Of a DNA stretch of 64,000 nucleotides, positions 32,313 through 63,536 are shown one piece after another (the stretch's first letter is position 1; each line of letters starts with the position of its first letter). Both the position numbers and the translations under genes were made by a program. The DNA comes from Antedon bifida (taxonomy: Eukaryota > Echinodermata > Crinoidea > Comatulida > Antedonidae): contig OY727096.1 in the NCBI GenBank assembly GCA_963402885.1, forward strand, positions 3,224,001 to 3,288,000, written 5' to 3'. The notes beneath the pieces were generated by a model. The model was given only the letters and a program-made list of their open reading frames with translations, searched no databases and was not told the origin of the DNA.

Positions 32313-32665
32313 TTAGAATATAATGACTGTACTAGTACTAGGACTAATACTAGGACTAGTACTACTACAGGTATCATCCGTACAGGTACAACGATCAAAG
32401 GTGTCTAAAGTAATATCTAGTTCAACATTTTCATTATCAGCACAGATAAACGTTATCGTTCTAGTTACAGACACTGGTGCCTCTGGCCTACAGCAACCAC
32501 ATTTGGTATCATAAGTAATGGTCTGTGTCCTTATTTCTACATGGTGAGTAGTAGTTGAAGCGCACATTCCATCACAGTAATCAATTTGAACGCCTGCTGT
32601 TGTGCAGGTTTTATTATTATATAATGTACTAAACGTTTCGACTGCCTGTTTTTGTTCACAAGTTT
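32313..32665 (-). other. Mucin C-terminal cystine knot (CTCK)
   Basis: Terminal exon, 117 codons with stop at 32313-32315. Cysteine pattern CEQKQ ... TCTTAGVQIDYCDGMC ... KCGCCRPE ... FICAD ... FDRCTCTDDTC fits the CTCK domain that dimerises VWF and mucins. A Ser/Thr-rich tail (STSPSISPSTSTV) follows. The hydrophobic last residues are too short for a membrane anchor. Confidence 0.93.
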
Positions 32666-35600
32666 CTAGAAATCAAAAGAAAAAAAAAATCTTATTCTCA
32701 AATTAGGAATTGCCAAGAATAGACAGTATAAAGGTGGCAACACTGTTCCCAGGGCAAAGATTCAAAAGATCCTCTACATAACCAAAGTATTTTGGAGTTA
32801 TTTTTGTAGAAAATTGTTATAACTTATTTTTATTTTCATTAAGCAAAATCAATTTTACAAAAATCTGCAGATGTATTAAACAAACCGTTGTTATTGTAAA
32901 GGCCTAACATTTTTTTTTGACTACACCAATTGCTTTTAAAAATTATAGAGAAAAAAATAGACACATATTACCTTTAGGTTTGGTAGTTGCCGGCAATTGG
33001 GTTGGTTGTGGTGTGGGTGTTGCAGTTGTACTTGGTTTTGACGGGGTACCTGTTGCAGTTGTACTTGGTGTTGACGGGGTACCTGTTGCAGTTGTACTTG
33101 GTGTTGACAGGGTACCTGTTGCAGTTGTACTTGGTGTTGACGGGGTACCTGTTGCAGTTGTACTGGGTGTTGACGGGGTACCTGTTGCAGTTCTACTGGG
33201 TGTTGACGGGGTACCTGTTGCAGTTGTACTGGGTGTTGACGGAGTACCTTTTGCAGTTGTACTGGGTGTTGACGGGGTACCTGTTGAAGTTGTACTTGGT
33301 GTTGACGGGGTACCTGTTGCAGTTGTACTTGGTGTTGACGGGGTACCTGTTGCAGTTGTACTTGGTGTTGACGGGGTACCTGTTGCAGTTGTACTGGGTG
33401 TTGACGGGGTACCTGTTGCAGTTGTACTTGGTGTTGACGGGGTACCTGTTGCAGTTGTACTTGGTGTTGACGGAGTACCTGTTGCAGTTGTACTTGGTGT
33501 TGACGGGGTACCTGTTGCAGTTTTACTGGGTGTTGACGGGGTACCTGTTGCAGTTGTACTGGGTGTTGACGGGGTACCTGTTGCAGTTGTACTTGGTGTT
33601 GACGGGGTACCTGTTGCAGTTGTACTGGGTGTTGACGGGGTACCTGTTGCAGTTGTACTTGGTGTTGACGGGGTACCTGTTGCAGTTGTACTTGGTGTTG
33701 ACGGGGTACCTGTTGCAGTTGTACTTGGTGTTGACGGGGTACCTGTTGCAGTTGTACTTGGTGTTGACGGGGTACCTGTTGCAGTTGTACTTGGTGTTGA
33801 CGGGGTACCTGTTGCAGTTGTACTGGGTGTTGACGGGGTACCTGTTGCAGTTGTACTTGGTGTTGACGGGGTACCTGTTGCAGTTGTACTGGGTGTTGAC
33901 GGGGTACCTGTTGCAGTTGTACTGGGTGTTGACGGGGTACCTGTTGCAGTTGTACTGGGTGTTGACGGGGTACCTGTTGCAGTTGTACTGGGTGTTGACG
34001 GGGTACCTGTTGCAGTTGTACTTGGTGTTGACGGGGTACCTGTTGCAGTTGTACTTGGTGTTGACGGGGTACCTGTTGCAGTTGTACTTGGTGTTGACGG
34101 GGTACCTGTTGCAGTTGTACTTGGTGTTGACGGGGTACCTGTTGCAGTTGTACTTGGTGTTGACGGGGTACCTGTTGCAGTTGTACTGGGTGTTGACGGG
34201 GTACCTGTTGCAGTTGTACTTGGTGTTGACGGGGTACCTGTTGCAGTTGTACTTGGTGTTGACGGGGTACCTGTTGCAGTTGTACTGGGTGTTGACGGGG
34301 TACCTGTTGCAGTTGTACTTGGTGTTGACGGGGTACCTGTTGCAGTTGTACTTGGTGTTGACGGAGTACCTTGTGTAAATGTTGCAAATGTTTTTGTAGG
34401 TGGGGTTAGTTCTTTAACTCTGGTAGTGGGTGTTGACGGGGTACCTGTTGCAGTTGTACTGGGTGTTGACGGGGTACCTGTTGCAGTTGTACTTTGTGTT
34501 GACGGGGTACCTTGTGTAAATGTTGCAAATGTTTTTGTAGGTGGGGTTAGTTCTTTAACTCTGGTAGTGGGTGTTGACGGGGTACCTGTTGCAGTTGTAC
34601 TGGGTGTTGACGGGGTACCTGTTGCAGTTGTACTTGGTGTTGACGGGGTACCTGTTGCAGTTGTACTTGGTGTTGACGGGGTACCTGTTGCAGTTGTACT
34701 TGGTGTTGACGGAGTACCTTGTGTAAATGTTGCAAATGTTTTTGTAGGTGGGGTTAGTTCTTTAACTCTGGTAGTGGGTGTTGACGGGGTACCTGTTGCA
34801 GTTGTACTGGGTGTTGACGGGGTACCTGTTGCAGTTGTACTTTGTGTTGACGGGGTACCTTGTGTAAATGTTGCAAATGTTTTTGTAGGTGGGGTTAGTT
34901 CTTTAACTCTGGTAGTGGGTGTTGACGGGGTACCTGTTGCAGTTGTACTGGGTGTTGACGGGGTACCTGTTGCAGTTGTACTGGGTGTTGACGGGGTACC
35001 TGTTGCAGTTGTACTTGGTGTTGACGGGGTACCTGTTGCAGTTGTACTGGGTGTTGACGGGGTACCTGTTGCAGTTGTACTTGGTGTTGACGGGGTACCT
35101 GTTGCAGTTGTACTGGGTGTTGACGGGGTACCTGTTGCAGTTGTACTTGGTGTTGACGGGGTACCTGTTGCAGTTGTACTTGGTGTTGATGGGGTACCTG
35201 TTGCAGTTGTACTTGGTGTTGACGGGGTACCTGTTGCAGTTGTACTTTGTGTTGACAGGGTACCTTGTGTAAATGTTGCAAATGTTTTTGTAGGTGGGGT
35301 TAGTTCTTTAACTCTGGTAGTGGGTGTTGACGGGGTACCTGTTGCAGTTGTACTGGGTGTTGACGGGGTACCTGTTGCAGTTGTACTTGGTGTTGATGGG
35401 GTACCTGTTGCAGTTGTACTTGGTGTTGACGGGGTACCTTGTGTAAATGTTGCAAATGTTTTTGTAGGTGGGGTTAGTTCTTTAACTCTGGTAGTGGGTG
35501 TTGACGGGGTACCTGTTGCAGTTGTACTTTGTGTTGACGGGGTACCTTGTGTAAATGTTGCAAATGTTTTTGTAGGTGGGGTTAGTTCTTTAACTCTGGT

Positions 35601-38600
35601 AGTGGGTGTTGACGGGGTACCTGTTGCAGTTGTACTGGGTGTTGACGGGGTACCTGTTGCAGTTGTACTGGGTGTTGACGGGGTACCTGTTGCAGTTGTA
35701 CTTGGTGTTGACGGGGTACCTGTTGCAGTTGTACTTGGTGTTGATGGGGTACCTGTTGCAGTTGTACTTGGTGTTGACGGGGTACCTGTTGCAGTTGTAC
35801 TTTGTGTTGACGGGGTACCTTGTGTAAATGTTGCAAATGTTTTTGTAGGTGGGGTTAGTTCTTTAACTCTGGTAGTGGGTGTTGACGGGGTACCTGTTGC
35901 AGTTGTACTGGGTGTTGACGGGGTACCTGTTGCAGTTGTACTTGGTGTTGATGGGGTACCTGTTGCAGTTGTACTTGGTGTTGACGGGGTACCTTGTGTA
36001 AATGTTGCAAATGTTTTTGTAGGTGGGGTTAGTTCTTTAACTCTGGTAGTGGGTGTTGACGGGGTACCTGTTGCAGTTGTACTTTGTGTTGACGGGGTAC
36101 CTTGTGTAAATGTTGCAAATGTTTTTGTAGGTGGGGTTAGTTCTTTAACTCTGGTAGTGGGTGTTGACGGGGTACCTGTTGCAGTTGTACTGGGTGTTGA
36201 CGGGGTACCTGTTGCAGTTGTACTGGGTGTTGACGGGGTACCTGTTGCAGTTGTACTTGGTGTTGACGGGGTACCTGTTGCAGTTGTACTGGGTGTTGAC
36301 GGGGTACCTGTTGCAGTTGTACTGGGTGTTGACGGGGTACCTGTTGCAGTTGTACTTGGTGTTGACGGGGTACCTGTTGCAGTTGTACTGGGTGTTGACG
36401 GGGTACCTGTTGCAGTTGTACTTGGTGTTGACGGGGTACCTGTTGCAGTTGTACTGGGTGTTGACGGGGTACCTGTTGCAGTTGTACTTGGTGTTGACGG
36501 GGTACCTGTTGCAGTTGTACTTGGTGTTGATGGGGTACCTGTTGCAGTTGTACTTGGTGTTGACGGGGTACCTGTTGCAGTTGTACTTTGTGTTGACGGG
36601 GTACCTGTTGCAGTTGTACTGGGTGTTGACGGGGTACCTGTTGCAGTTGTACTTGGTGTTGATGGGGTACCTGTTGCAGTTGTACTTTGTGTTGACGGGG
36701 TACCTTGTGTAAATGTTGCAAATGTTTTTGTAGGTGGGGTTAGTTCTTTAACTCTGGTAGTGGGTGTTGACGGGGTACCTGTTGCAGTTGTACTGGGTGT
36801 TGACGGGGTACCTGTTGCAGTTGTACTGGGTGTTGACGGGGTACCTGTTGCAGTTGTACTTGGTGTTGACGGGGTACCTGTTGCAGTTGTACTGGGTGTT
36901 GACGGGGTACCTGTTGCAGTTGTACTTGGTGTTGACGGGGTACCTGTTGCAGTTGTACTGGGTGTTGACGGGGTACCTGTTGCAGTTGTACTTGGTGTTG
37001 ACGGGGTACCTGTTGCAGTTGTACTTGGTGTTGATGGGGTACCTGTTGCAGTTGTACTTGGTGTTGACGGGGTACCTGTTGCAGTTGTACTTTGTGTTGA
37101 CGGGGTACCTTGTGTAAATGTTGCAAATGTTTTTGTAGGTGGGGTTAGTTCTTTAACTCTGGTAGTGGGTGTTGACGGGGTACCTGTTGCAGTTGTACTT
37201 GGTGTTGACGGGGTACCTGTTGCAGTTGTACTGGGTGTTGACGGGGTACCTGTTGCAGTTGTACTTGGTGTTGACGGGGTACCTGTTGCAGTTGTACTTG
37301 GTGTTGATGGGGTACCTGTTGCAGTTGTACTTGGTGTTGACGGGGTACCTGTTGCAGTTGTACTTTGTGTTGACGGGGTACCTTGTGTAAATGTTGCAAA
37401 TGTTTTTGTAGGTGGGGTTAGTTCTTTAACTCTGGTAGTGGGTGTTGACGGGGTACCTGTTGCAGTTGTACTGGGTGTTGACGGGGTACCTGTTGCAGTT
37501 GTACTGGGTGTTGACGGGGTACCTGTTGCAGTTGTACTTGGTGTTGACGGGGTACCTGTTGCAGTTGTACTGGGTGTTGACGGGGTACCTGTTGCAGTTG
37601 TACTTGGTGTTGACGGGGTACCTGTTGCAGTTGTACTTGGTGTTGACGGGGTACCTGTTGCAGTTGTACTTGGTGTTGACGGGGTACCTGTTGCAGTTGT
37701 ACTCGGTGTTGACGGGGTACCTGTTGCAGTTGTACTTGGTGTTGACGGGGTACCTGTTGCAGTTGTACTTGGTGTTGACGGGGTACCTGTTGCAGTTGTA
37801 CTTTGTGTTGACGGGGTACCTGTTGCAGTAGATGGTATAACAATAGTAGTTGTTCTTTCATGCAGACATCCAAAAATTCCAAATCTTACTGTTGGATTGG
37901 CGACATTATAAGAATCAATTTCCACTCTTAGAGCGACAACAACTGGAAGTTCTTCAGGAAGAAGAATTTTTTCTACAAGGGAATTATTAGTTTGGTTTGG
38001 AACATGAAAGTCATCACTCATGATAATGTAACTTTCACTTCCTGGTTCTTTATGATACAATTTAAGTTTGGTAACAGAATTTCCTTCATCTCCCTGAATG
38101 GTTAAGGATGTTATGGATACCGTGTTATCAAATGTAACATCTACATATGGTTTGGGCTGTACAATAATATCAGGATACCATATTTTTTTGCTGTCTATTT
38201 CCGTGCTGTTAGGATTAGAATTATCTGATGTTGTTCTAGTTATTGAAAGTCCAGCAATAATAGATAATTCATCATCACATTCTGTAAAGAAAAGAAAATA
38301 GTTTATTATAAACTAATACTATACTATAACATTTTTCCAAATGGTTTGATTGGCTACACGTGGCTGTATTTTCTGTATTAGCAGTGGAGACAATTTTTAC
38401 TCCTGAAGTTTGTCATATGATAGATAAATTTCAAACTGAACCTAACTCTTAAATAAACCTAATCTACAGTAAAAAAAAAAAAGAAACGGTTTACAATTAA
38501 ATAACCTATGAGAGTTGAAGAAAACATCAAGAAAACGCACACAGTCCAAATTAAAATAATATTTAAAGTTCAGATTTTATTATAATAATTAATAATTACT

Positions 38601-41600
38601 AGAAGTTGTTTATTTTGCATTCTAAAATAGATAATTGATTGCACGTCATGAACTTGGAAACGTAAATTCTTCTGAACTTGCAGACCTCCACAAGTTGTGT
38701 TGTCAATCTAGCACCTGGCTATCTTTTTTTAGCTTGTGGAAGAATAATTTTAAGAACATTATTTTATTTATTTAACATAAAGTCCGGGTTTTTCTAAAGA
38801 GTCCATGAAGCTCAAGTCAAAAGTCCCAGATTTAATTAACATTTCAGTACTTTCAAATCAAATAAAGTAGTCTATCATATTTAACAAACTAATTTTATAT
38901 GTATTTTTTGACCTCCGCCAAGTAGGTTATATAGTCAATTTCACCTGTCTGTTTGTTAGTTAAAGGATTGCCAGATCTTTACCATTAAATTCTGGACCAC
39001 TTTTTATATTATTTTACTTACTACAGGTAAGTATCCATGTGTTGAACTTAGGTTCATAGTAAAATAAAATATTAATATTATTAATAAAAAATAATAATGA
39101 TTAAATATTTAAAAAAATAATGATAATGAAAAAATAAAGATCCTAAGCAGGAATTAAACCAAGGATGTCTACTGTGAAAGGGTGGATAAACCATCGTTCA
39201 CATGGCTGTAGTGCAATTCACAAATCATACGTAACTCTAATTAGTCCAGTAAAGATAAGTCAAAAATAGGGTGAACCTAGAACAAATTGCAACAGAATTT
39301 TTTTTTGTTTTGTCTGGTAAATATGGTTCAAATGAACATCATATCCAAAGTTTACCAAAATCGGACCCCGGGAAGTAGGTTAATTAGCATAAATTCAAAA
39401 TGGCCGCCATTTGCTATTTTGAAGCCCCATATCTCCTTAACGGTTGGATTTAGACCACCTTGTGCATTACGAGTAGATGTAAATGTGATATTAAACATTC
39501 TAATTAGCTTATTTAAATTCCCATATGACGTACCTATGACGTCATATGGTAGTTGTGACGTCGTACATTATGTTATAACTGTTTAAATGACATTATACTA
39601 TGCGAACAATTTAGGAAATGCAAGAAAACATGTTTCTTAATATTCTCCTTGTTGAAATGAACATAATTTCCAAAGTTTACCAAAATCGGACGTCAGGAAG
39701 TGGGTTAATTAGCATACATTCAAAATGGCCGCTATTTACTATACCATTTTGAAGCTCCATATCTCCTTAACGGTTGGTTTTAGACCACCTAAGTGCATTG
39801 CGAGTAGATATAAATGTGATATTAAACATTCTAATTAGCATAATTAAATTTCCATATGATGTACCTATGAGGCATATGGTAGTTGTGACGTCATATATTA
39901 TGTTATAACTGTTTAAATGACATTATACTATGCGAAAATTTAGGAACTGCAAGAAAACATGTTTCCTAACATTCTCCTTGTTGAAATGAACATTATTTCC
40001 AAAGTTTACCAAAATCGAACGTCAGGAAGTGGGTTAATTAGCATACATTCAAAATGGCCGCTATTTACTATACCATTTTGAAGCACCATATCTCCTTAAC
40101 GGTTGGTTTTAGACCACCTAAGTGCATTGCGAGTAGATATAAATGTGATATTAAACATTCTAATTAGCATAATTAAATTTCCATATGATGTACCTATGAG
40201 GCATATGGTAGTTGTGACGTCATATATTATGTTATAACTGTTTAAATGACATTATACTATGCGAAAATTTAGGAACTGCAAGAAAACATGTTTCCTAACA
40301 TTCTCCTTGTTGAAATGAACATTATTTCCAAAGTTTACCAAAATCGAACGTCAGGAAGTGGGTTAATTAGCATACATTCAAAATGGCCGCTATTTACTAT
40401 ACCATTTTGAAGCACCATATCTCCTTAACGGTTGGTTTTAGACCACCTAAGTGCATTGCGAGTAGATATAAATGTGATATTAAACTTTCCAATTAGCATA
40501 TTTAAATTACCATATAACGTACCTATGATGTCATAAGACATATGACGTCATATTATGTCACAATAATGCTCAATTGGCATTATTCTAAGGGGAAAATATA
40601 AAAACCGTAGGAAAAGATGTTTTTAATCTCATGAAAATAGTAGCACAATTAACACATCCAGGTTAAGATCATGAGATGCTGACTATACCGAAAACTACAG
40701 TATGACATTTATCATTTTATGTGTAATCTCAATTCCAAGATGGGGAATTGAGATGAGTTTGTGGAAATGATAGGTTTGAATAGCCTGACCCATTACAATA
40801 TTGTTTTATTTTCCTTTACCAATTTAAAGAGATGAAGTTCTAAAAGATGTAGTTTTGGAAACACAAAACAAGATGTGCGCGTGAGTACAAATCAGTTTCG
40901 GGAATACAGTTGATGATCACAACCTTTCATACTGTTCTGTAGAATAACTATTTTCATGAGATTTTGTAAATAGAAACTTAATGATAAATTTCAATGGTTT
41001 TTACATATATATCTACTCGTAATGCACATAGGCTGTCTAAACCCAACCGTTAAGGAGATACACTGCTTCAAAATGGTATAGTAAATAGCGGCCATTTTAA
41101 CCCACTTCCTGACGTCCGATTTTGGTAAACTTTGGATATCATGTTCATTTCAACAGGAAATTGTTAGAAAATTGTTTTCCTGCAGTTTCAACATTTGTTA
41201 GCATAGGATAATGTCATTTAAGCAGTTATAACATAATATATGACGTCACAACTACCTTATGACGACATATTTACGTCATATGGTAATTTAAATGTGCTAA
41301 TTGGGAAGTTTAATGTCACATTTATATCTACTCGCAATGCACTTAGGTGGTCTAAAACCAACCATGAAAGAGATATGGGGCTTCAAAATGATATAGTAAA
41401 TAGCGGCCATTTTGAATTTATGCTAATTAACACACTTCCTGACGTCCGATTTTTAAAAAATGTAGAAATTATGTTCATTTCAACAAAGAGAATGTTAAGA
41501 AACTTGTTTTTCAGCAGTTTCTAAATTGTTCGCATAGTATAATGTCATTTAAGCATTTATAGGTTCTAGGACACCTACCCCCTAGACAGTTACCCCCCCG

Positions 41601-44600
41601 GATGTTTACCACCCGGACAACTACCCCCTTAGGACAACTACCCCCCGGACAACTACTCCCCGGACAACTACTCCCCGGACAACCACCCCCTTAGGACAAC
41701 TACCCCCTTAGGATAACAATCCCCCGGACAACTACCCTCCGGACAACTACCCCCTTAGGACAACTACCCTAAGAAATTATGTTCATTTCAACAAGGAGAA
41801 TGTTAAGAAACTTGTTTTTCAGCAGTTTCTAAATTGTTCACATAGTATAATGTCATTTAAGCATTAATAACATAATATATGACGTCACAACTACCATATG
41901 ACGTCATAGGTACGTCATATGGGAATTTAAATATGCTAATTAGAATGTTTAATATCACATTTATATCTACTCGTAATGCACTTAGGTGGTCTAAATCCAA
42001 CCATTAAGGAGATATGGGGCTTTAAAATAGCAAATGGCGGCCATTTTGAATTTATGCTAATTAATCCACTTCCCGATGTCCGATTTTGGTAAACTTTGGA
42101 TATGAAGTTCATCATATCAACCATATGAAACAAAAAAAAATTCTGTTGCAATTTGTTCTAGGTTCAACCTTATTTTTACTGGACTAAATACCCTTCACAT
42201 CTGCAACAATAAGGTTTGCATAGTGTGAATACTATTTTATGAAAATCTCCAGAGACACATTGATGAGAAGCATGTTTTTGTTGAGATTTAAATAACGCGC
42301 AACTAGGCTTTCTACCAAGATTTCTCAGGCTTCGCATGCATGTATGAAAACGTGTAATAAATCAGGAGATCAAACTTGGTTACAAGTTGTTACAAGTTGT
42401 ACAAATTTATGCAGATGTAAAATAGGGTATAAGACAAAAAAAAATTAATAATTAAGTTTGAGGGATATTTTAGAACAGAAGAGGATTCCAATAGTATTTT
42501 TCAGTAATTTATGAACAAGGAATCAAACATGCAAATGCTGAGTAAGCTAGTGTTCTACTAAATACTACAATTTTGTATCAAACCACAAAAGATATACATA
42601 ATTTATTTTGTTAAAGAAATTATTGAGTAATATGGTCAACTGCTTCTCTATATACAGTATTTAATAGTGTTAAAATTGTAAATGTCATACAAGGGCCGAA
42701 CTAGGTTTGCGTGATCTCCCTTTTTAGCAGGTAAAATGAGATTGCGTACTGCATTCTGAACTATCTCGTAGAAGCCTTAGATCATTGTAACAGAACCTGT
42801 TTCGAGAGCGTAGGGCCAGTGGGGTCGGAGATCATTCTATGTTGAAGCTGCAAGTGTATGGCTATAGCTTACCAGCAACAGTTAAATGCTTTATTTAATA
42901 TTATTCTGAAATTTATTTTTTTTTATTATTATTATTTCATCATATAAGACATTACAAAGGAAAATATCACTATATGCTGATTTTAAAAGTTAAAAGCTAA
43001 ATACAATTTTGTATCAAACCACAAAAGATATGCATAATTTATTTTGTTAAAATGAGCTCTATTTGGGTGGAGGATACCGACTCTATACAAATTGTCGTTA
43101 TTATTACTATACTGTATTATTATCATTATTATTTATTTTGGACATATTATTAATATTATATGTTAGCTCTACACTGCCTAGATCCACCCATCACAGAAGG
43201 GATCGATAAATGAAAATGAAATGAAATACCTTCGATCGTCGTCAATCTAGTGGTTTGCAAAGTGGTAGGAGCTTCAGTTACTAGTACGGTTGTTGTAATT
43301 TCAGCAGTGGTAGTACGACTAGTTGTAGTTTGAGGTACTTGAGGTGTCGTCGTAGGTTTGATCACACATCCATAGAAAGCAATTCGTAAAGCTGGCTCAA
43401 TATGATACTTTATGATTTCAACTTTTAGATACACGACATCTGGAAAATCATTCGGCAGTTGAATGATAGTCACTTCTGAATGGTTATCTTGCCCCGCTAC
43501 CTCTATCAATTTATTCCACTCTACTATAGTGTCAGAGTCCACTGTTTTATAGTGCAATTTTAGCTCTGTAACATACATATCATCTATTCCCTGGATACCA
43601 ATAATAAGCACCTCTACAGTGTAGTTGAAATTGAATTCAAGATACGCTCTAGGTTGTTCTGGCATATTGTTTGGTTTCCAGCCCGCACTATATAACTTTG
43701 TGTTTTCTGGATTTGAAAAGTCGGATGTTACCCTAGTTGCTTGTCCAACGACGTCCAAGTCTTTGTTACACTCTAGATAAAAACAGAATTGTATTATTGT
43801 CTCTCAATTAACTGTATTGGCTAATTTGATTGATGGTAATGTCATTACTTGCAGCGTTCGCAATAACACTGGTCCGCCGCGGCCAATGGCAAGTTAAATG
43901 CATGATGGACCTGTTAAATAGTAAAATAACATGTCTGTTTGGCCAGTTAAAATTTCAGAAAAATATGATGAAATATCAATAATTTTACTCAATTTACCTC
44001 TTCACAAATTCCTTTACAAAATATTCCTAATGTAACAAAGATTTATTTTTTTGTACCTCATTTTTAGTTTTTTTTAAAGTTATTTTGGTTGTTAATTGAA
44101 GGCCTCCCTATTGGCCCATATTCTGTGGCCAGTAAAAGAAGTGGAGTAATATAATTTTACTGGTCTTCTTGTAAATTACAAGAAAAGTCATTAAAAGTGA
44201 AAGTTTCACAAACAATATATTGTTATGTTATTATACTAAATGCATATTATCACTGCAACATGTATACAGCATGTATGTATCATGTATTATTTTGCCATAC
44301 ATAATTTGTTTAAATTTTGTGGGAAATTATTTCATTATTTCAAGAAACAACAGCTTGAACAAGTCCTATTTATGGTCATTTGGAAGATAATTTGTTTTGA
44401 GATGTGATTTGAGAATTTATTGGGATAGCCGAATAATTTAAATATGTTCTCAATAGATGTTTTGTTTTTGTTTCATTTTTTTCTTGTTTTAATAATAACA
44501 AACAATAATATAATTAAGAAGAAGTATAATTGTATTCGTTCTTAAAAAATATTAAATCACTCCTACAATTACGATTAGAGTACCGTAAATCTTCTAATAA

Positions 44601-47600
44601 TAGTAACCCGCCCTATAATAGTAACCCACCTTAGTCAATCTATAATAATAACACACTACTCTAATAGTAATATTGGTTAATATTAGAGTCACAAAAACTA
44701 TTGACAAAATTACATTATGAAGACTGGTCGTTTATGATGCAGCCGTATTTTGAAAATAAGGAGATAATGCATGTTGATCTCGTGAGTGGGGGGGAGGATT
44801 GAGTGTTTTTGAGTTTTGTTTTTTTATAAAATAAAGTTAGAGTTCAAAGAAATGTGTTTATTGGTACTGTTTTATTATTTTGCTATGATTTGCTGACCGG
44901 AAAAGTGGGTTACTATTTTCAAGTGCCTAATTTAAGATTAGTAATAGTAACCCACTACTCTAATAGTAACCCCACTTCTAATAGTAACCCACCCTAAAAA
45001 ACAATCAAAGAATAATAACCCAGGGTTACAATTAGAAGATTTATGGTATATTCCAATTGCATACCTTCAGTTGTTGTAGGCACAACAGTAGTGGTTGGAA
45101 TTGGAGTAGTAGTTGTAATTGGAGTAGTAGTTGGCCTTGTTGTCGGAGCGACTGTAGTAACCTCACAGACCGGTTTAGCACCACAAAGACCAGTTTGGCT
45201 GTTGTAGTCATCTTGATGGCAACAGCCATCTACACAGGTAGCACCGTGACACATCTCCACACATGGACTGTAATGCTCACATCCCTCATCACACTGCATA
45301 GCTGTATCATAATATTAATAATAATATTAAAATGTAAATGGGGAATATAATAACCTGGGATTGGCTACACAGGTGTGGACGAGGACGACACATACAACAA
45401 CTTTCTTCTTTCCTAAGGGTCTCTTCATGTTGATTGCTGCCACCAAACGGCGCCCGTTCATCTGTCCACAATGGAAACATCTGTCCTGGCTGAATAAACC
45501 AGTACACAAGGGAAACCCCCTACTCTTCCGAAAGATGTATTGAGTTCTTTAAAGTGCACGCGAGCCAGATATGTACACTGTACCTCCAGTTTTAAGTCCA
45601 TATCCGAGAAGGAGGAGTGTCTTGAACCTGTGCCGATTGTATAGATGGTTTGCGGCTCAAGTTTACTCGGCATGGGGGATATTATCAAACACAATCTTGC
45701 CAGGAGCATGGAATCTGAACACATTTTAATCCTCATGTTGCAACATAAACAAAACAATAATTTATTTTTCAAAAAAGAGTTAGAAAATTTGTTAAAAAGG
45801 CAACAATAGAATTAATACACAAACTAAATATATGAAAGAATATATATCCAAAGGCAAATTACTGAAAAAATGACAATGCTGTGGGTATCAGTGGCTGGAT
45901 CTCAATGGAGATACAAAAAAAAAAGCGAAAAGCTAAATCAAAATGATAAGTAAAACAGCCAGAAAAGTTAGCAGAGCTTTCGGGCAACACTAGCACTTCA
46001 TCAGTGCAAGTGAAGGAATTTGGATAACGAATATAAGTGAGTTACATTGTAAATCAAATGAAATTAAAGGGGCATTATTGTCGTAAATTGTGAAATCAGA
46101 TGATCAGTAATTTTAGCTTTAGAGTTGTAGAATATGAATGCCTATAAAGGCATTTTTATTTGTGGTCCTACCTTGTTTGTTTTATAATAATATTATTGTC
46201 TATACCTTTTTATGCTATTGTTATAAAATGTACAGTATTTCATCCATGATCAACTTTGATCAACTGTATACTGAAAGTGTTTCACTTAAAATAAAAAATT
46301 AAATAAACAATCAGTCACAGTTTTGGAGAATTGGGAAAAAAAAGTTGTTGAAACTTACGGCAAAAGTGTGATGACCTCCAGCTTATCAAGATGTCATAAT
46401 CTTTGCAGAGTTGGGCATAAGCCGATATGGCTGTACACATACACTCACAGTCTCCACCATAGTCACAGGCACATGAATCAGCCACACATTCTGTGTAAAA
46501 CGTCTTGACGGGAACACGACTGTGGCACGGTGAAAACAAATCTTCATAAAGTATTTTACACTTGCTCTCGGCCCAGAACTTTCGTTTTGGGTATTTTTGA
46601 CAGGCATCACTGGGCTCTACAGCGCTAGGGCAAGCAGTCAATGCCTATTGATATAAAAAAATTGTTGTTTACCATGTACAGTACTGTAAGGTAAACAAGG
46701 TAAATTATAACATTATAAAACCATTAACCATGTCCAATAGTTACTTTTACCGACCATTGCCTGCCCAGTAAAACTTACCATGGTCTCGGTAAAACTAATT
46801 ACATGGCTAAGAAGTCCAATCACAACGTGCAACTCATGCTAACACATGCAAGTCAATCATTTTTTTAACATCACCGTTAAAATATCTAAGTACGATGATA
46901 GTATGATGATCAAATCTTCTGATGACATTGGGTAAAGCCACCATGGTTAAATTTACAATGTTTCAAATCCAGTGCAAACAAGGCATACCTTCCAACTATC
47001 ACCGAACTCATATACTGACGTGGCTTCCATTCCATTTCGCATTTGCAGATCGTTACCTTCCACACCATCATAGTAGCCGCATAGACCTGTTAGCTATAAA
47101 AACAAGTAATATCTCTAGAAAATGATTTCAGGTTTTACATGTGATGCAGGTGGTTAAAAGCAGATATACAGGTGGCTATTATGAATGCTTATGAGTGCAA
47201 ATAATGAGGTGAAAACATTTCACTTTCACCAAATTATTTTTTCTATTACATGAACATAAAAACATTCATTATTTGTTTTCACGCCTACTTTTATTCAATT
47301 ACTTCGCTGATTCGACCCTAACCCTCCAATTGTGGACGTGGGGTAGAAAAATTATAAATGATGCACATCTACTGGGCCAATTTTAACATTAGACCCCAAT
47401 TTAGGGTTCGGACACCCCGATCACCGGGGTCCTGAAGATGTATTCTTAATAAGGGTTATATTGAATTTATCTTCTTACTTTGCTTTGCAAGCTTGAACTT
47501 AATTTAATTTGAAGCCATGTTCCTTTATTCCACAGCAAAGTGTAGCCTACATTTATTGAGTATACAAGCACATTGTAATCCAAGTCCATTACTGTCCAGT

Positions 47601-50600: not shown

Positions 50601-53600
50601 TGTCAGGGAAGTAACTGTTATTCTAATACTAAAATATATATGATGGGTGGTACAGCCATACCAAAAACAGAAACAACAATAAGAAGACATTGTCCTCGCA
50701 ATAAGAAGATATCATTGCAGATGTTCTGATGTGGCAGACAAAACATGGGCTTGCAAAACTAGGAAGACCAGCACTCACATACATTGATGTACTAGAGATG
50801 GATACTGGTATGCAGAGAGAGGAACTGGCTGTCACAATGGCAGATAGGAAGTTATGGTGGAATCTAGTCATATAAGTTTGGGTATGTCCCAGACTAAGTA
50901 ATGCAGAGAGATGAACTGGCTGTCACAATGGCAGATAGGAAGTTATGGAGGAATCTAGTCATATAAGTTCGTGTATATCCCAGACTAAGAAAGTAGGAAA
51001 TACAGTTGTATACTTACTGCAGTTGTACACATCTTCATGCCAGTAATCCATGTAGATTCCCTTTTTGGCGCAATCAGAAACATACTGTGACATCATATTG
51101 CAGTGAATGCTCTCATCTTCTAGATTTGTACACACATCGTGCATGCAGGAATCATAATACGGCCGACTTTCCAAAAACTGGAAACATTCTGTTTAGATTA
51201 ATTGATAATACATAATTAGGAGCGTTGGCAGTGGAGCTGTAGCTTGGTGGTTAACATGCTTGCCTTCTAATCCCAAGGTCCAAGGTTCAATCCTGAACTA
51301 GTGCCAGGGTTGTAACCCATGACTCTTTCAATTCAAGTGAGACTCGCGTTAAATTATAAAATCCATCCTCTAATTAGCAAGTTTCACGATGTTGGATGCG
51401 AATGAATTAAAAAAAAGTATATTAACTCAATGAACAGGTGGTATCGCTACTATAGATGGGAATGATGACATGATATCAATACTAAATACGGTCATGATAC
51501 AGCATCACTACTAGGTATGGGTATATCATGACCAAATATGGGCATATCATGACCAAATATAGGCATTATGGCATATCACTACTAAATATGGGCATTATGG
51601 CATGATATCATTACCAGATATGGGCATTATGGCATGATATCAGTACCAAATATGGGCATTATGGCATATCACTACTAAATATGGGCATTATGGCATGATA
51701 TCATTACCAAATATGGGCATTATGGCATGATATCAGTACCAAATATGGGCATTATGGCATGATATCATTACCAAATATGGTCATTATTGCATGATATCAT
51801 GACCAAATATGGTCATTATGGCATATCACTACTAAATATGGGCATTATGGCATATCATTACCAAATATGGGCATTATGGCATGATATCAGTACCAAATAT
51901 GGGCATTATGGCATGATATCATTACCAAATATGGTCATTATTGCATGATATCATGACCAAATATGGTCATTATGGCATATCACTACTAAATATGGGCATT
52001 ATGGCATGATATTATTACCAAATATGGGCATTATGGCATGATATCAGTACCAAATACGGGCATTAGCTTTACCTGAAAGGGCTCCTGCACTCTTGAGTGG
52101 TTCACACCTCTCCACAGCAGTTTGTTGATGATTCTGGTGACAGTTGCAATGTAGAGTTGAAACTGCATGGCTATTTGAACAACCAGCAACAACTTTGGTC
52201 TTACTAACAAACTCACTAATATCTTCCTCAACATTCCCTAATAAAAACAATAATTAAATCTTGCTTCCTTTCATAAAAGAAAAAAGATGTCTTGGAGAAC
52301 ACAAAAAAAAAATGTGTTACCATTTCAAAAGTATGTTTACATTAAAGATGTATTGTCCCCCTGAAAAAATAATTCTTAACATTTTATTTTTAATTTGCCA
52401 TTTTAATGTCACAAAACAGTTGTCCACGTTGGATCAAAAAAAATGTATTTAACCTAAAAAACTGTAAGGTAAAGCAAAAAACAGTCAAATTGGTTGCCAA
52501 CCAATGGGTTTTTGGTTGAATTTAACCATTTATTTTATCATTTTATATCTGAAAATCATTAATTTTTCCGTTTTTATATCTACAGAAGTGATTACCTTTA
52601 TTAAAACTACAAAATAATCTATTCAAAGTCTGATTTTATTAATCTTTATTTTTCATGTTTTGACGGGACAATACATCTTTCACATCAGACATGACTGAAT
52701 CATTTTCTCTATACTTATACTTATGACAGTAGGAACATCTGGATGGGAATTGTGTGTTAATTGAAGTACTGTTGACTATGTAGAAAGTAGAGATTTGTAC
52801 AATGTTTTCTTATAAAATTTACCTGCAGGTGTCAAGAAATCGTCAGACTTGGCGTTGTTGTATGTTCCACATAATCCGCACGTTTTTCCAAACAAATCTC
52901 TCTCAACGTGAACCTCTATTTGTGTATTGCCATCGTACAATAGTGAAATACCATCACTCAGCGATACCTACAGTATAATGATATTGTCAGTACACTAATG
53001 CTATACCTGTCTCATGCATGAGGGCCGATTTTTTATACCTCACGCATATGTGTCCATTTTTCACGTATCCAATTGTATACACAATTTTAATTTAATGTCT
53101 CACGCATTAGCCACTGAAAACAGACACAGTATTGTACAATATAGCTAAAATAAAGTGCAAATTTAAATTGATCTTTATGTACTTGCATGTACTATCATAG
53201 CTACATGCTACTATAATGCACAAATATCAACCTACAGGCTTTTTTTAATTGATTCACTTCATATTAAGCGCTGTCTACATTATCAAAGTTTATGAAAAAA
53301 CGTAGCTTATCATATAGAGGTGCCAAGGTTTGGAATGAGCTACATGAAGATATTAAAAATGTGAACTCTGTCTCTCTTTTTAAGAAACTGTTAACTGCTA
53401 ATTTCATGTAGCTTTATTTAAATGTAGTGTATTATTTAATTTTATAGTTAGTAAGTGTATCCTTGTTTTATTTTATTGTAATTGTTTTATTATCTGCATT
53501 TAAAGTAAAAGAATAAAAAGTTACCTTGATTAAATTGTCAATCTTTTCAACAAACAATCCTAGCAATACATGTGGAAAAGAGGCTATTTGAAAGTTGTTC

Positions 53601-56600
53601 ACATAAGCCCTGGGACCTTCAGACAACATAACTTGATTACCACCCTTGATGATTGTAAGTTTCTTTGTGCACGGGGCTAGAAATCCGTCGACTTCTGGAT
53701 GGCAATGTGTATTTTGTAACCGTATTTGGTAATCCCCTGGGTCGTCGTTGCAGTCTTTGAGGAGATAGTATTCACAGTCGCCCATGAATTCATAGTGTTT
53801 GTTGTCAAAGGTTTTGTACGAGAAAATACCTGATGCCCAGCAAGTAGCTATAATAAGAATAATCAAATGTATGGATACAATATTTAAAATGGATGATTCA
53901 TTTTGGTCACTCAATCACATTAATTAACATGTAATAGCTATTCACTTTGACCAAAAACTGGATCTAAAAAAAAAATGATTTTCCTAAAAAAAAAGTAAAA
54001 AAATACTTAAATTGTCTGTCTACACTATCAACCTAGTTTGACAAAAAAAGTGTGATTTACCCAAATATGATATGTTTAAATATGGTAGTGATATGATATC
54101 ATCATTTCCATATATGGCCAGATCACATTTTTGTTGTCACATAAAGTTTGATAGTGTAGGCAGAGCTTTAGGAAGTGTTGCCGGTTACTAGGTTCAGACA
54201 GCAACCGACGACATTTGACATGAAATAACTTGTAACTAGGTCATCGCAAATCAAAATAATCAAATATCGTCCTCAACATACCTCCACAGAGCTGGTCTAT
54301 GCAGTCGAATGATCCACTTCTACAAGTGCTGAAATTGATATTGATAAATATGTACAATCAATTGCATGTGCATTGGTATAAAATGAAAAATATTGACAAT
54401 TAAATAACTGCCAACTGTCATTGAATTTTAGTTTAAAAACTTGCAGTGAAGACATTGACTGGAACTACGTTCTTCTAAAATGGCCCTCTTGCATTGCAGA
54501 GAATATTCTTAAGCTCTGTCTACACTATCAAACTTTATGTGACAACAAAATGTAATCTGCCCATATATGGACATGATAATGTCATATCACTACCATATTT
54601 GGGAATATCACTACCTATTTGGGAACATCATCCTTTTTTAGATAGTTTGATAATGTAGATAGAGCTTTAGTAATATTACTAGATCATCTTCAGAAAGGTC
54701 TAGCTGAAGCATGAACTATCCTGACAGAAAACCATATGGTATGGTAATAGAATATTCCTTGTAAATTGGCCATTTTTCGAAAAAAATCCCTGTACTATAT
54801 TCCAGCACACTTACCACTCTCTGCATTCAGTATCAACAACCTCATTAGGTTGAATTACATCATTGCCATAAAAACATGGGCAATCGGTGCTTGGTACACA
54901 AACTCCATTATGATGCAAATGCCCGCTTTTGCATTTACAACCCTCTAAACAAAAGTCAGGTTCACAGTCGCCATCTTCGTGCTGACAGGTACCGCCACAT
55001 GTACTCTGACATGGTGAATATTCCTCAACCTGGACATTACAATCAAAGGCTGTAACAAAAGCAATATAATGTTGTAGTCATACATTTATAATAAAATAAA
55101 TACAGTAAAGTCTCTAGATCACCTTAGGCTATGTTTGTAACCGTGCTCGATGAAAGCCCAGTAAATATTTGTTTTATATAACATACCAACCTATTTGGAT
55201 GGCTAGGCTAGACCGAAGCGAACGCAAACATATACTTGGTTGGAGTAGGCCTAGTTAGTGGCACAGTTTTGCTGCTAAGAAGCAAGCAAAAAAGGCCTGC
55301 GTTTGATAATTCATCGCTGATATGCCATAAGTATGCAATAAATATTCCCAAATCATACTTTATTTGTTCTTCATATTTTAACTGGTTGCTAAACTTACTA
55401 AATCCTCCAAGTCAGCTCATACACAAGTTAATTATCATAGCCTAGGCTACTAGGGCTAGCTACACAATTGTTGAATCGCGCATGTGGATCCGTTTGGGTT
55501 AGGGTTATAGACAGACGATTAACCAATCATATGCCGTGCTGGTATATAATTTGAGATACAACATAAAAAACTGTTTGTTCCTTTTGTAAAATTTAAACTT
55601 TTGCTAGCTTTCCAAATTCATTAAAAATGTGATTCTTGAAGAGTTCCTCGTATCAAGGAGATGACAGATACAGGTACAATTTATTCTATCCTTCACAGGA
55701 AATTCACAAGATAGCAGTTCAAGAATACAATAATGATGGAATGAGAAACAACAAATTAATTAAGACAAATTATCTCTGAAAATTGTAGAATAATTATACA
55801 TTATACAGAACTTACGACAGAAATCAGCTGTTCGCCAATTTACATTTGTACCACTTCTAGAGCATTCCAATGCATATGCAGCAAAATCGGAACAAATGCA
55901 ATCATTAATATTACTGCTTTTACAACTACAAATGCTTTCGTAACAAGCTTCAAGATAGTAGTCCGATGGAACCACCTAAAAAAATAACAAGTTGCTTTTA
56001 GTTCTATAAATATAAACTGTAAATAAAAATATATTATAGATTTCAGTGATGCATGTGGCGCAATGTGTTGAACGTTGGATTACTGATCGTGAGATCATGG
56101 TTCGAATTTAACTCTCGCCGCATTGCTTGTATCCTTAGGCAAGATACATTTGCTCTCTCCCCCCAGGTGTATAAAATGGGTACCGGTTAGATCAAGACAC
56201 AATTTTGCGATGATTACTAGTTGCATTATGGGAGTATGTTTCCGTACGTGTTTGATCCAAAAAATGACTGAGGTAATAATGTGCAGCGCATTGAGAGCTT
56301 GCTTATATACTCTATATTAGAATTATTATAATAATAGATAAGGTAGGTAACACCAATAATGGTTAATAATGGTTAGTTTATGATGTAGATTAAAATAAAC
56401 ATATTATCAAACAAATAATACTGTCCTATACTTATTCAATTGTTTTTAGATTTTTTAATCTGAAAACAAATTGGAAATGCGCAATTGTAAAGGCTTATTT
56501 ACACTAGGACGATAACGATAGACGATAAAAAACAGCATAAATGATTATCCTATAGTTCTAGAACGAAAACTTTTTAAATTTCTTTTGTTTTATGTAATAA

Positions 56601-59600
56601 AAATGCATGCTTATATATTTATCATCGATTGTTATCATCCTAGTGTAAAAGGCCCTTATAACCCTTACGTCTAGGCAATCGCAAAAGACCTCCTTCAGTT
56701 TTAGGCACATGTTAAGTTCATCTTGGCTAAGATCTTTAAACTTTACACAAGTCTCTATTATACCACATTCTGAAAGATGAGAATGTTCAATACAATGAAT
56801 GAAATTTATCGTATTATCCATCACTATGCACTATCTTCAAAAATGACATTTTCATAGATTTTTCATTCTTTCCTTTCAAAATAAGAAGCAAAAGACATAA
56901 AACTGATCCAAAAACAAAAAACTGAAATAAAAAAAAAATTTAAATAACAGCGCAGGTTATATATTTAATTACACATAACTATTGTTGTCAAAAAACAAAA
57001 CAAATTAAACAAAAGATGTAACGTATCCCACTTGGTATCACATGATCTTAACTGAATTCACACAATCCGTAATACTTTTGAGTTGTGGCAAGGCAAATGT
57101 GTTTCCTGCTCCTTTGTTTGGTCACCTAGGTAGGGGTCCGAGACCGCGACAGGACGAGAACGGATGGGGACCCTCCAAAGAAATTGCATTTTATTTGTAT
57201 GATTTGCTTTATATTTAAAATGCGCTTTGAGCACTCTTGAGTGGTATGTGCGCTATAAAAATCTTGTTATTATTATTATTGTGGAATGCAATTGTTATTA
57301 AGTTTTTAAAACTAATCCCCTTATTTTGTAAAAAGTTGTAAAAAAAAAGAAAAAAGTTTCGATTTTCATTTGCAAAGTACTGTATAACTGTCTTCTATTT
57401 GCATGGACTGTGGTTCGTTTTACTACACATTTATTCACAATTACATTTTACAATATTTAATAGTATACCAAAATACGTAAAACATCTCACAAGTCTGTTA
57501 ATACTTGTTACAAGGTGAAGCTTGCAAATGTGAACTGGGTATTACTATTAGAAAGCCAAAACGGTGGAACATTTTTCTATAATAATATCGATGATGTTAC
57601 ACCAAATTGTAACCAAATGTATATCATTAAAAAAATTACATAACCACAACCACACTTGCACAATATGTTTACTATATGCAGAATATTAAATTCTAGAACA
57701 AATTAAGACTGAGAAATCATGATTTTATTTTGAAGAATGAGCAAATTACCTGCACTTTCTACATTCCAATTTTTAGCCATGGTAAATGGATCAAATGTTG
57801 ATGGTATAACACCATTATGGGCAGCATCATTTGATGGTAACCCATCATAGCTTCCACACATCCCAGTAACAGTTAACGGTGAGCCGGTAATAAAAATTTC
57901 AACCAAGTCCTTTCGGTTCCAGATAACTTTAAACAGATTCAAGTCATCAACCACAGTAACGTAATGAGAGGAAAATGTGATTGAAAATGGACCGACAGTT
58001 TGTGTTTTGCTAATAAGCTCATTGTTGTACATAACACCATCACTTCTCATCAGTATGGATTTCAGGGTCCCATCATCATTTTCTTGAACAATAATAGACA
58101 TGAAATCAGTGTAGTCAACCAAAATCTGAAAAACATCGCCATCTTCGTTGTTGTCCACCTCATCATTTTGAACCAAAACATGACGACATTCGCTGTTAAC
58201 GGAATAAACGAAGCCATCAAATGTGCGGTAATTCTGCTTGTCCCATACAGTACAAAAATCCCCTGAAAAATAACAAAATTACATATCAACGAATTGATAG
58301 TACATAGTTTATTATGCCAAAAAAAAAAAACACAAAAATATAAAAAAAAAATAACACTAATTAACTGCTATGTGAGAAGTACTTCCACTTACTCTAAAGC
58401 TCTGTCTACACTATTAACCTAATTTGACAAAAAAATGTTATGTGCACAAATATGGTAGTGATATGACATCATCATGTCCATATATGGGACATCGCATTTT
58501 TTTGTCACATAAAGTTTGATAGTGTAGAAAAAGCTTAAAACATGAATGTAAAGCTCTGTCTACACTATCAAAAATTACTATCTTTTTTCCACCCTGAAAT
58601 GAACCTTCGAATAGTTGGAGTAGCAAAGATAAACAATTTAAATACATGTTACTTGCCATTTGGCGGAAGACTGGGTTCAGGTCTATATCCACTATTAACT
58701 GAAATAAAAAAAAAGATATTTGACATTAAAATGTTATACATAACATAATATTATTATTATTATTATTATACATAATTAATGAAAATGTTACATATGAAGT
58801 AAATATACATTTATCATATCAAATTGATATTTATAAGACAAATATTATTTACAAAATATGCATTTTTATACAAGAAATAAAAGTGGTGAAATCCCCACAA
58901 AAGATTTAAAAAAAATATCTATTAAAACGAGAAAAACCATGTTGAGAGATGTAGCTCATTGGAAGGAGAGACTCATTAAAATCGGTATAGAATATTCAAT
59001 ATATATTTAATTTTTTTAGTTGGATTAAACATCTTCTAATGTACAGTATGTATTTATTTAATATATATATATATGGACCAAACCGTACATGTTAAATAGG
59101 ATTCTAAAATTGTTTTTACATTTTTTTTTTCATAAATGAAGAAATTAAACATTTAAAAGTCTTACGAGTTTCGCACAAAAATCCTTCAATTCCATCTGGA
59201 CACTGGCAAACACCGTCTGTACAAGTTCCCCCATTTAGGCATGGATTGGGAACACACGACAGAAGCACTGAAGAAAATAATGTTAATTTATCATCATATA
59301 GAGTTCTGCGGTGCTGACGTCACGGCAGTAGGTGGCGCCGTTTTGTAGCTAGAAAACATTCAACCTGCCTGAGTGACTCCAAAGTCACCAATGGCTTGGA
59401 ATAGGCTTATTGACTTACTTAATAATTTTCAATAAAAACAAACTAAAATTTCAAAAGATCACTAAATATTTGTTTTTAATAATCTATTTATTCTTCAACT
59501 ACAGTTTAAGTTAAAAAGAATCAAGCCAAGATACATAATTTGATAGAAATACAGATCTATATAGTTTATCAACATAGTAGCATTGAACACATTTTTGGTT

Positions 59601-62600
59601 GCGCTAGCAACCATGCAGCGCCATCTATTGTTGTGATGTCACACCGCAGAACTCTATAGTGAGAAACATACTGATCAAATGCACAGGTTGATTTTATGCT
59701 TTTTTTCTAAAGCTCTGTTTACACTATCAAACTTTGTGACAAAATTAAAATGTGATGTGCTCATTTACAGTATGGACATGATGATGTCATATCACTACAA
59801 TATTTGTGCACATCGCTACCATATCACACTTTTTTGTCAAACTAGTTTGACATGAAAAATGTGATGTGCCCAAATATGGTAATGATATACCCAAACAATA
59901 ACATGGTAGTGATATGACATTGTTCATGTTCATATATGGGTACATCACATAAAGTTTGATAATGGAGACAGAGCTTAAGATCACAGCAGGTAAATTTACT
60001 ACACTGAACTTTACTAGTCTGAACTATTTACTGCCGATATTATGCAAAAAGATTTACCATAACCCTTCTCACTTTGTATTCTATATGTTTAGGATAAGAT
60101 TTTTCTTATTATGTTTGATAATTAAATATTATTACAAAATGGTCTGTTTCTACTTAACACTATGGCCAACCCCTATTTAGTGGACGCCTCTATTAAAGAA
60201 AAACTTTATTGGGTTCCAGTTGTGTCCTCTTAATGAAGGTCCAACTGTAGTAAAACGAAAATGTTGTGTAGTAATCTCAGAACAACTTACGTATTTCACA
60301 AAAATAACCGGTGTGTGTTGGTTCAGCACCTCCATTGCTACAATCACATGTTACGCTTTCTGAATCCGAGTTTTGACAAGGAGCGCCATTTTTGCATGGA
60401 TTATTTTGTGCACATACGTCCTCTAAATGAAATATGAAGTAAATATATCAAAATTGTATTTAAATTAAAGGTAACTAATCATATTTCTATTAAAATTGTC
60501 ATTAAAAAACAATCATTTCAATAATAAAAACACAAAATTATTCAAAATTGTTTTTAAATGACAACATGAACAAACCAAAAAATAGGTATTGGGTATAAAA
60601 TCATAATATACCATTGGGGCACTAATGTCCTTGTATAATTACACAGTGTCTTCCAACTGCATATGTTGTAAAACGAATAAAATTGGAATTTCAAACACAA
60701 GTCGAGTGGCAGAGCTGTTAAGTACCGCAAACCATTTATACAATCGACACAGGTTCACGGCACTCCTTAACCATTGTTCAAGTCAAGTTCTGATGGTAGG
60801 ACAAATCTTCTCGGATAAGGACTTAAAACTAGAGGCCCAGTGTACACATCTGGCTCGTGTGCACTCTAAAAAAAACCCAGTATATCTTTCGGAAGATTAG
60901 GAGGTTACTCGGGTGTACCGGTTCACTCAGCCCCTATGGTTGTGGACAGAAACAAACAGGCATATCCCCGGGTATAGTCCCAGTATTGACTTTTAATCTT
61001 GATGTAAGCCTCTCTCTAGCCAGTTCAGACCTTTATTTTCCAGGATTTCCCTGAGTGTAGTCCCACCCACAAAGTTTCATATTCTATGGGGGTGGGATTA
61101 TACCACAGGATATACAGTACTTACTCAATTCACAGAGGGTGCCTCTATGAAATGTACCAGTACAGTTACACATAGAGGTATCTGATTCCGCATCATAATT
61201 GCATATACCACCATTTTCACATGGATCACTTTTAAAACATGGATCCTCTGAAAAAAAAAATGTTTTTAAAAACTGTTACTGAATTTGGGTTAATTTTGGC
61301 TAATTTACTGGCCACTGTCCGGCACCTTCCAATTAAATTAACCATGCTGGCTAAAAACATGTGACTCAGGTATGTTCTTAGAGTTCATAACGCCATAATA
61401 CTTCAATTATAGTTTTTTTTGTAAGACAAAACAAAAATGTAATCCTTTCAAAATAAAATGATAATGATAATTTGGCCTTACTAGTGTTATAAATTAGACA
61501 ATATTGTACAATAGAATGCATCTACACCATTGTGTTGAGTCCTAGTGGGAACAACACTTTACACTTGACCTCAGTTGACCTTACCATCACTGCAGGTATT
61601 TCCAGTAAAGCCTGTATTAGTACAATCACACTCTGCACTACCAAGACTATCAACGCATTTTCCATTATTCAGGCAAGGGTTTGGCTGACATGGATCAACT
61701 GAAAAATAACAAAACAAGACACTTTCTAGCTTGCAAACTGCCACTGAGCCTGTTTGCCAGGATGCTGGATTCAATTGTAACAGTTCCTCTAAAGCTATGT
61801 CTACACTATCAAACTTTATGTGACAACAAAATTTATGTGGCAAAAAACTTAATGTGGCAAAATATGTGACAACAAAATTGTATGTGTGCATATATGGACA
61901 TGATGATGTCATATCACTACCATATTTAGGCATATCACTACCATATTTGGGCACATCACACTTTTGTTGTCAAACTAGTTTGATAGTGTAGTCAGAGTTT
62001 AAAAGCTTTACAGAAAATGAAAAGCCAGTAAATAACTGGTCTGACATTTGTTTTATCTATCTTTTGCCAAAGATAGTGCTTAAGTGAAAAACTGGTTTAT
62101 CAAACTTTCATAAAGAAATGAACTTCCTTTATGATACACTATATATAAATATACTTATCAATAAATTAAGCATACACTCACAATTGAAAACCATTTAAAT
62201 CATTCACGTGCATGTGAACGTGATGTCACTTTGTTGGGTTGTTGCACATGCTCTCCCTGTGCGCCTCCCCCACCTTGGATCCACCCCTGACTTTGTTGTT
62301 GTGTGAATTAAAAACCAAACAAAACACTTACGATATTCACAATGCACTCCAGCATAGCCCAGTCCTGCACAGTCACATTCATATGCACCTGCATCCAATA
62401 CCATACAAATACCACCATTTTGACAAGAGCCACCATTTTCACACGCTAACGTAAAATATATACAGTAGTATAGTAATTATCAAAGGCAATAAATATAAAA
62501 AAAACAATGTTGTGATGTTTTACTTCCTCAATGATACACTATATATAAATATACTTATCAATAAGAGTAAAATAGTGCAATTTGACTACTGGCTCTTTCT

Positions 62601-63536: not shown

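Follow-up and report, generated by a model that had tools for sequence, protein, structure and literature searches.

A putative echinoderm gel-forming mucin gene with EGF-like and discoidin-like modules

Introduction

Does a single gene of Antedon bifida join an EGF block, mucin-type D domains, discoidin-like modules, a Thr/Pro/Ser array and a cystine knot and, if so, what kind of protein would it encode? The question is raised by the minus strand of a 64,000-nucleotide stretch of DNA (hereafter the window; C9:3224001–3288000). We examined the gene model in the window, the assignment of each domain and related loci in the 315.6-Mb assembly (27 contigs).

Gene model

The gene runs on the minus strand from window position 63536 to 32313 and is composed of 28 exons in one shared reading frame. 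Joined, the exons give 10331 bp and 3443 codons including the terminal stop (3442 residues), with consistent phases and no internal stop. AG acceptors are present at all 28 exons, and 26 of the 27 donors are GT; the remaining one, at exon 8, is GC. Exon anchors were picked by eye from the sequence and checked afterwards by script; six-frame scans preceding exon joining gave the same domains, exon by exon. As a random control, 500 sets of segments matched in length to the model exons (exon 27 omitted) were taken from the non-exon minus strand. Even in its best frame, no set had fewer than 71 stops (mean 101), compared with zero in the model. Pfam was run on seven joined segments of the predicted protein, and ten of the other ORFs gave nothing above its cut-off. 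The gene is real, with all exons in one direction, and the phase-consistent 28-exon structure proposed in a first-pass annotation is borne out by re-derivation, splice sites, the stop control and Pfam domains.

The domain order is five EGF-like domains, D1-D2-D'-D3, two discoidin-like domains (probably divergent F5/8-type-C), a Thr/Pro/Ser (T/P/S) region of 1628 residues and a CTCK-type domain. The features, with the basis of each assignment in parentheses, are as follows.

63536–63513 and 62799–62773, minus strand: exons 1–2, short N-terminal linker with no domain (splice sites and phase 1-1 only)
59166–62445, minus strand: exons 3–7 (62445–62332, 61698–61585, 61247–61125, 60422–60291 and 59267–59166), five EGF-like domains, one per phase 1-1 exon (Pfam EGF)
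58657–58698, minus strand: exon 8, 14-codon linker with GC donor (splice sites, phase)
54282–58262, minus strand: exons 9–13, D1, VWD-C8-TIL (Pfam)
50074–53847, minus strand: exons 14–18, D2, VWD-C8-TIL (Pfam)
49063–49676, minus strand: exons 19–20, end of the D2 linker and D', TIL (Pfam TIL, 34.8 bits, 1.8e-8)
45065–48765, minus strand: exons 21–25, D3, VWD-C8 with a cysteine-rich TIL-like tail, and a short T/P linker (Pfam, alignment)
43230–43772, minus strand: exon 26, discoidin-like domain 1 and T-rich tail (phase 1-1 exon, profile)
37842–38281, minus strand: 5' part of exon 27, discoidin-like domain 2 (Pfam F5_F8_type_C, below cut-off)
32972–37842, minus strand: rest of exon 27, T/P/S region, 1628 residues (composition, repeats)
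32313–32665, minus strand: exon 28, CTCK-type cystine knot, short S/T tail and stop (cysteine pattern)

Introns in the window contain a dispersed short element that looks MITE-like by eye (e.g. at 23892, 54511, 58465 and 61910). Two of its words are TCTACACTATCAAAC, with 10 exact copies on both strands, and CATATCACTACCATATTT, with 19 exact copies. A 329-bp tandem repeat (3.7 copies) occupies 39326–40528 in intron 26, and a stretch near 41–42 kb that faces it looks, by eye, inverted relative to the repeat.

N-terminal region and EGF block

The EGF block is matched by Pfam EGF in five stretches (78 bits, 5.9e-22). Without the short exon 8 that follows it, the junction of exon 7 to exon 9 would also be in frame. 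Neither the window nor the 19.4 kb lying upstream of it yielded a convincing start codon or signal peptide. With strict donors, a scan for signal-peptide exons over the introns, the window end and the 19.4 kb upstream yielded none; looser donors gave six weak candidates. The introns hold one in-frame ATG. The gene is therefore 5'-incomplete here, and its 5' end should lie further upstream.

A neighbouring gene at 3629–6811 on the minus strand, in the same direction as the mucin, has a signal-peptide-like start (MWKIILLSCVVVC) and six EGF-like exons at 6157, 5754, 5411, 4896, 4333 and 3772. Its EGF pieces are 37–54% identical to the mucin EGF block, of which it is a possible source or sister.

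D domains and inter-chain cysteines

The three D assemblies are matched by Pfam as VWD and C8 (D1: VWD 40.9 bits, 3.4e-10, C8 50.9, 1.9e-13; D2: VWD 109.2, 3.2e-31, C8 45, 1.3e-11; D3: VWD 95.9, 4e-27, C8 65.3, 6.2e-18), with TIL in D1 (30.7, 3.6e-7) and D2 (37.7, 2.3e-9). The domain chain claimed in the first-pass annotation thus stands for EGF, VWD, C8 and TIL, except that Pfam finds no TIL after D3.

Positional correspondence to known D domains is clean for D3 and mixed for D1 and D2. On human MUC2, the best stretch for D1 is 16–367, which is the MUC2 D1; its best partner is likewise D1 in MUC2, MUC5B and MUC5AC chains, and D3 in VWF chains. D2 pairs best with D2 in VWF, MUC5AC and MUC5B and with D1 in MUC2, and its top chain is FCGBP. 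At E<=0.001, there are 33 PDB sequences that match the D'D3 segment, and every one is named mucin, VWF or FCGBP. Against D'D3-only chains the segment scores 277.8 bits with MUC5AC, 246.9 with MUC2, 240.7 with MUC5B and 195.6 with VWF, a ranking of scores and not a phylogeny.

The CGLC motif occurs once in the whole protein, in D2 at residue 715, and is absent from D1, though present in the D1 of human MUC2 and MUC5AC. This motif is assembly-related and is not obligatory for the gel-forming mucin family. D3 contains equivalents of VWF cysteines 1091, 1097, 1099 and 1142, which can be aligned with MUC2, MUC5B and MUC5AC; the first three sit in the C8-3 loop and the fourth after it. As described in PMC8847404, these residues form D3–D3 bonds in VWF and MUC2.

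Discoidin-like modules

Each of the two discoidin-like domains spans about 140 residues, has one cysteine at either end and starts at a phase 1 exon edge; they are 37% identical to each other. Domain 1 alone has no Pfam match, and domain 2 matches F5_F8_type_C at E=2.7e-4 to 3.9e-4, with 21.0 bits versus a cut-off of 28.2. Because Pfam missed discoidin-like domain 1 and the CTCK, domain-family profiles were used for the discoidin-like modules. The profile built from the two window domains matches factor VIII C2 and neuropilin-2; at E<=10 it retrieved 33 PDB sequences (best E 0.0011), namely 31 entries for factor VIII, neuropilin-2 or discoidin-2 plus YolA and an asparaginase. A second profile combined the two window domains with four relatives from the same genome. 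At E<=1 it found 30 PDB sequences: 28 belong to neuropilin-2, factor V or factor VIII (best E 3.6e-5), and the two non-family matches are IsdC. Pfam F5_F8_type_C is detected at E<=0.1 in five of these six domains, the best still below the cut-off, and the first and last cysteines are invariant in all six. From these profile matches, the two modules are likely divergent F5/8 type C domains. Judging from the family, with Nectin and Sfp1 as treated in PMC7037938, they may bind glycans.

T/P/S region and cystine knot

The T/P/S region is 43% Thr, 17% Pro and 15% Ser (75% together), with 949 Ser/Thr residues. It is built chiefly from the 11-residue repeat GTPSTPSTTAT (99 exact copies), with a longer variant present 13 times. 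The DNA of the array (33018–37829) is very uniform, its 125 33-base units that start with GGTACC representing 13 sequences; the array length may therefore vary or be mis-assembled.

Exon 28 encodes 11 cysteines in the order seen in the VWF CTCK, including equivalents of 2771, 2773 and 2811. In VWF, three CTCK cysteines bond two chains, according to PMC6333368 and PMC8626975. Exon 28 has no Pfam match for CTCK, and its label rests on the cysteine pattern together with a weak match to the VWF CTCK (4nt5, E=0.11). The discoidin-like and CTCK names given earlier are accordingly kept by virtue of profiles and cysteine pattern, respectively, with Pfam falling short of its cut-off or silent. Taken with the domain order, the conserved inter-chain cysteines argue for the polymerising mucin architecture that had been proposed.

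Related loci in the genome

In the mitochondrial ND1 and COX1 genes of this genome, the usual animal motifs result when AAA is translated as Asn and ATA as Ile, as in table 9, a code that echinoderms and flatworms have in common. ND1 and COX1 lie on opposite strands, an arrangement not known from flatworms, so the host is probably an echinoderm.

At E<=1, the CTCK has two matches in the genome: one is the window gene, the other lies at C9:2632209–2632490. The latter falls within mucin loci at C9:2.60–2.66 Mb, where D-domain exons are followed by CysD domains (Mucin2_WxxW, 7.3e-16 and 3.7e-19) and S/G/T- or T-rich repeats in long frames. VWD/C8/TIL exons of these CysD loci are 30–49% identical to the window gene over D'D3 pieces. 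The D1 VWD was not found in them, and the EGF block and discoidin-like domains gave no match in C9:2600001–2670000 (E<=0.01) or C9:2660001–2700000 (E<=0.1).

Of the 24 matches to the discoidin-like search, two fall in the window gene; the other 22 lie at C9:9755561–9782520 and are 34–48% identical, save one (31%, E=0.134). Two further features define this second locus.

C9:9718672: EGF-like exon (pattern match by regex)
C9:9719217 to 9728734: D-domain exons

Each tandem exon of the second locus consists of one discoidin-like domain and a T/P/S tail, and near-identical pairs lie about 1474 bases apart. Beyond them come discoidin-like pieces of greater divergence, T/P/S frames, and exons that are TSP1-like (by eye) or TIL-like; no CTCK was found up to C9:9791000. 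We infer, from sequence on either side of 9729001–9755000, that the second locus (C9:9.72–9.79 Mb) is one gene. Its EGF-like exon, D domains and discoidin-like plus T/P/S exons repeat the order in the window and, together with the exon phases, uphold the earlier view that the window contains a single gene and not three.

By sequence identity, the window gene has a mosaic history: its D'D3 pieces are nearer to the CysD loci (43–49%) than to the second locus (35–44%), and EGF and discoidin-like parts are common to the window gene and the second locus. The discoidin plus PTS module, as read from these sequences, recurs, and it does so at the position that CysD occupies in ordinary mucins.

Elsewhere, tandem VWD matches of equal score lie about 1.7 kb apart at C7:672774–734906, which on this pattern represent a recently amplified VWD array.

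Discussion

Inter-chain cysteines of the MUC2 and VWF type are present in both D3 and CTCK, so the best reading of the gene is a disulfide-polymerising, O-glycosylated mucus protein. We give a probability of about 0.8 to a secreted echinoderm gel-forming mucin that would form disulfide-linked polymers, bear dense O-glycans and carry discoidin-like modules at the CysD place. Chains would first pair tail to tail through the CTCK and would then be linked head to head through D3, with D1-D2 as an assembly platform, yielding long disulfide-linked polymers. The T/P/S region would bear dense O-glycans that hold water. Between D3 and this region, the discoidin-like pair would replace the CysD of other mucin loci in the genome and probably give side contacts to glycans, which might belong to the gel, to microbes or to a surface. 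Additional protein contacts are the probable contribution of the EGF block. The sequence itself shows the domain order, the reading frame and the cysteines; secretion, polymerisation, glycan binding and a mucus or adhesive role are predicted. Several features sit less easily with a gel-forming mucin: no signal peptide was found, D1 lacks CGLC, the CTCK match is weak, the discoidin-like match lies below the Pfam cut-off, and D1 and D2 do not correspond strictly one-to-one to the known D1 and D2, D2 having FCGBP as its top match.

The protein might instead act in clotting or immunity in the manner of hemolectin or hemocytin, as a polymer net of blood cells in which discoidin-like domains hold microbes. 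Hemocytin and hemolectin do combine VWD with discoidin and are given a role in aggregation in PMC4015701. A T/P/S region of 1628 residues with 949 Ser/Thr is, however, a mucin trait, and D3 ranks higher with mucins than with VWF (by score, not by phylogeny), which makes this reading unlikely.

Two transcription units, an upstream EGF-only gene and a D1-to-CTCK mucin that starts in intron 7, are somewhat less probable. Here an ATG at 58741 opens MYNILMSNIFFFIS and continues into exon 8 in the model frame, and the hydrophobic stretch after it might act as a signal peptide. In favour of this reading, the search upstream of exon 1 turned up no exon for a signal peptide, and the GC donor of exon 8 is non-standard. 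The hydrophobic run, however, coincides with the pyrimidine tract of the exon 8 acceptor, so that the likeness could be chance; exons 1–9 all join in phase 1; and at the second locus the EGF-like exon (regex match at 9718672) lies about 0.5 kb ahead of the first VWD exon.

Less probable again is an Sfp1-like adhesive protein of tube feet. Sfp1 shares VWD, C8, EGF and discoidin domains (four of the last) in the description of PMC7037938, but neither a T/P/S array nor a CTCK figures in it; the window protein, for its part, has no GDPH motif, and a galactose-binding lectin domain is not among its Pfam matches.

An artefact of assembly or annotation, in which unrelated exons or a degenerate gene were strung together, is very improbable: exons were picked by eye and the repeat array may be mis-assembled in length, but 28 exons carry no stop versus at least 71 in 500 random sets, the window matches assembled chromosome C9 and the module order is found again at the second locus.

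Returning to the gel-forming mucin, we tentatively suggest, as a possibility short of even odds, an echinoderm subfamily in which a duplicated phase 1-1 exon encoding a discoidin-like lectin module and T/P/S tail replaced CysD. If this is true, each polymer of such a mucin would bear glycans as well as domains that bind them, making reversible self-cross-linking possible, and the protein would be a natural design for a mucus with its own lectin. It would also mean that mucins keep their polymerising ends and exchange the module between them (CysD, VWA in the case of VWF, or discoidin-like as here). Because two discoidin-like loci lie beside CysD mucins in one genome, the swap is testable across echinoderm genomes.

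Comparison with known systems

The closest parallels are the vertebrate gel-forming mucins MUC2, MUC5AC, MUC5B and MUC6, which are alike in D1-D2-D'-D3, CTCK, inter-chain cysteines and a T/P/S region within one giant exon. The window protein differs in the EGF block in front and in having discoidin-like domains instead of CysD; it also has no Pfam match for a fourth VWD or a VWC. MUC6, too, is not known to have a fourth VWD. In the same genome, the CysD loci share with the window gene VWD/C8/TIL exons and one CTCK, and have CysD in place of discoidin-like domains. The second locus shares the EGF-like exon, the D domains and the discoidin-like modules with T/P/S tails, and differs in its approximately 22 discoidin-like matches followed by TSP1-like and TIL exons.

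Among proteins outside this family, insect hemolectin/hemocytin combines VWF-type D domains with a discoidin domain, as here, and has a role in aggregation and immunity; the account in PMC4015701 mentions no T/P/S array. Sea-star Sfp1 is a cohesive footprint protein that undergoes autocatalytic cleavage into four subunits (PMC7037938), whereas the Sfp1-type GDPH motif is absent from the window protein; the latter has both a T/P/S array and a CTCK, neither among the parts of Sfp1 described in that source. SCO-spondin shares three D-type assemblies and a CTCK with the window protein, and has EMI, LDLrA and TSP1 domains (PMC8487547), for which the seven segments of the window protein gave no Pfam match. 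A mosaic gel-forming mucin with inserts of other kinds is reported from Ciona in PMC6109156. No paper on a mucin combining EGF, D1–D3, discoidin, PTS and CTCK was among the matches listed in the literature searched, which covered few subscription articles.

The first-pass annotation had described a protein that joins two designs. The combination itself stands; precedents for VWD with discoidin exist in hemolectin/hemocytin (PMC4015701) and Sfp1 (PMC7037938), as far as those sources describe them, and the lack of GDPH sets the window protein apart from the latter. The window gene is a new arrangement of known parts, not a new kind of system.
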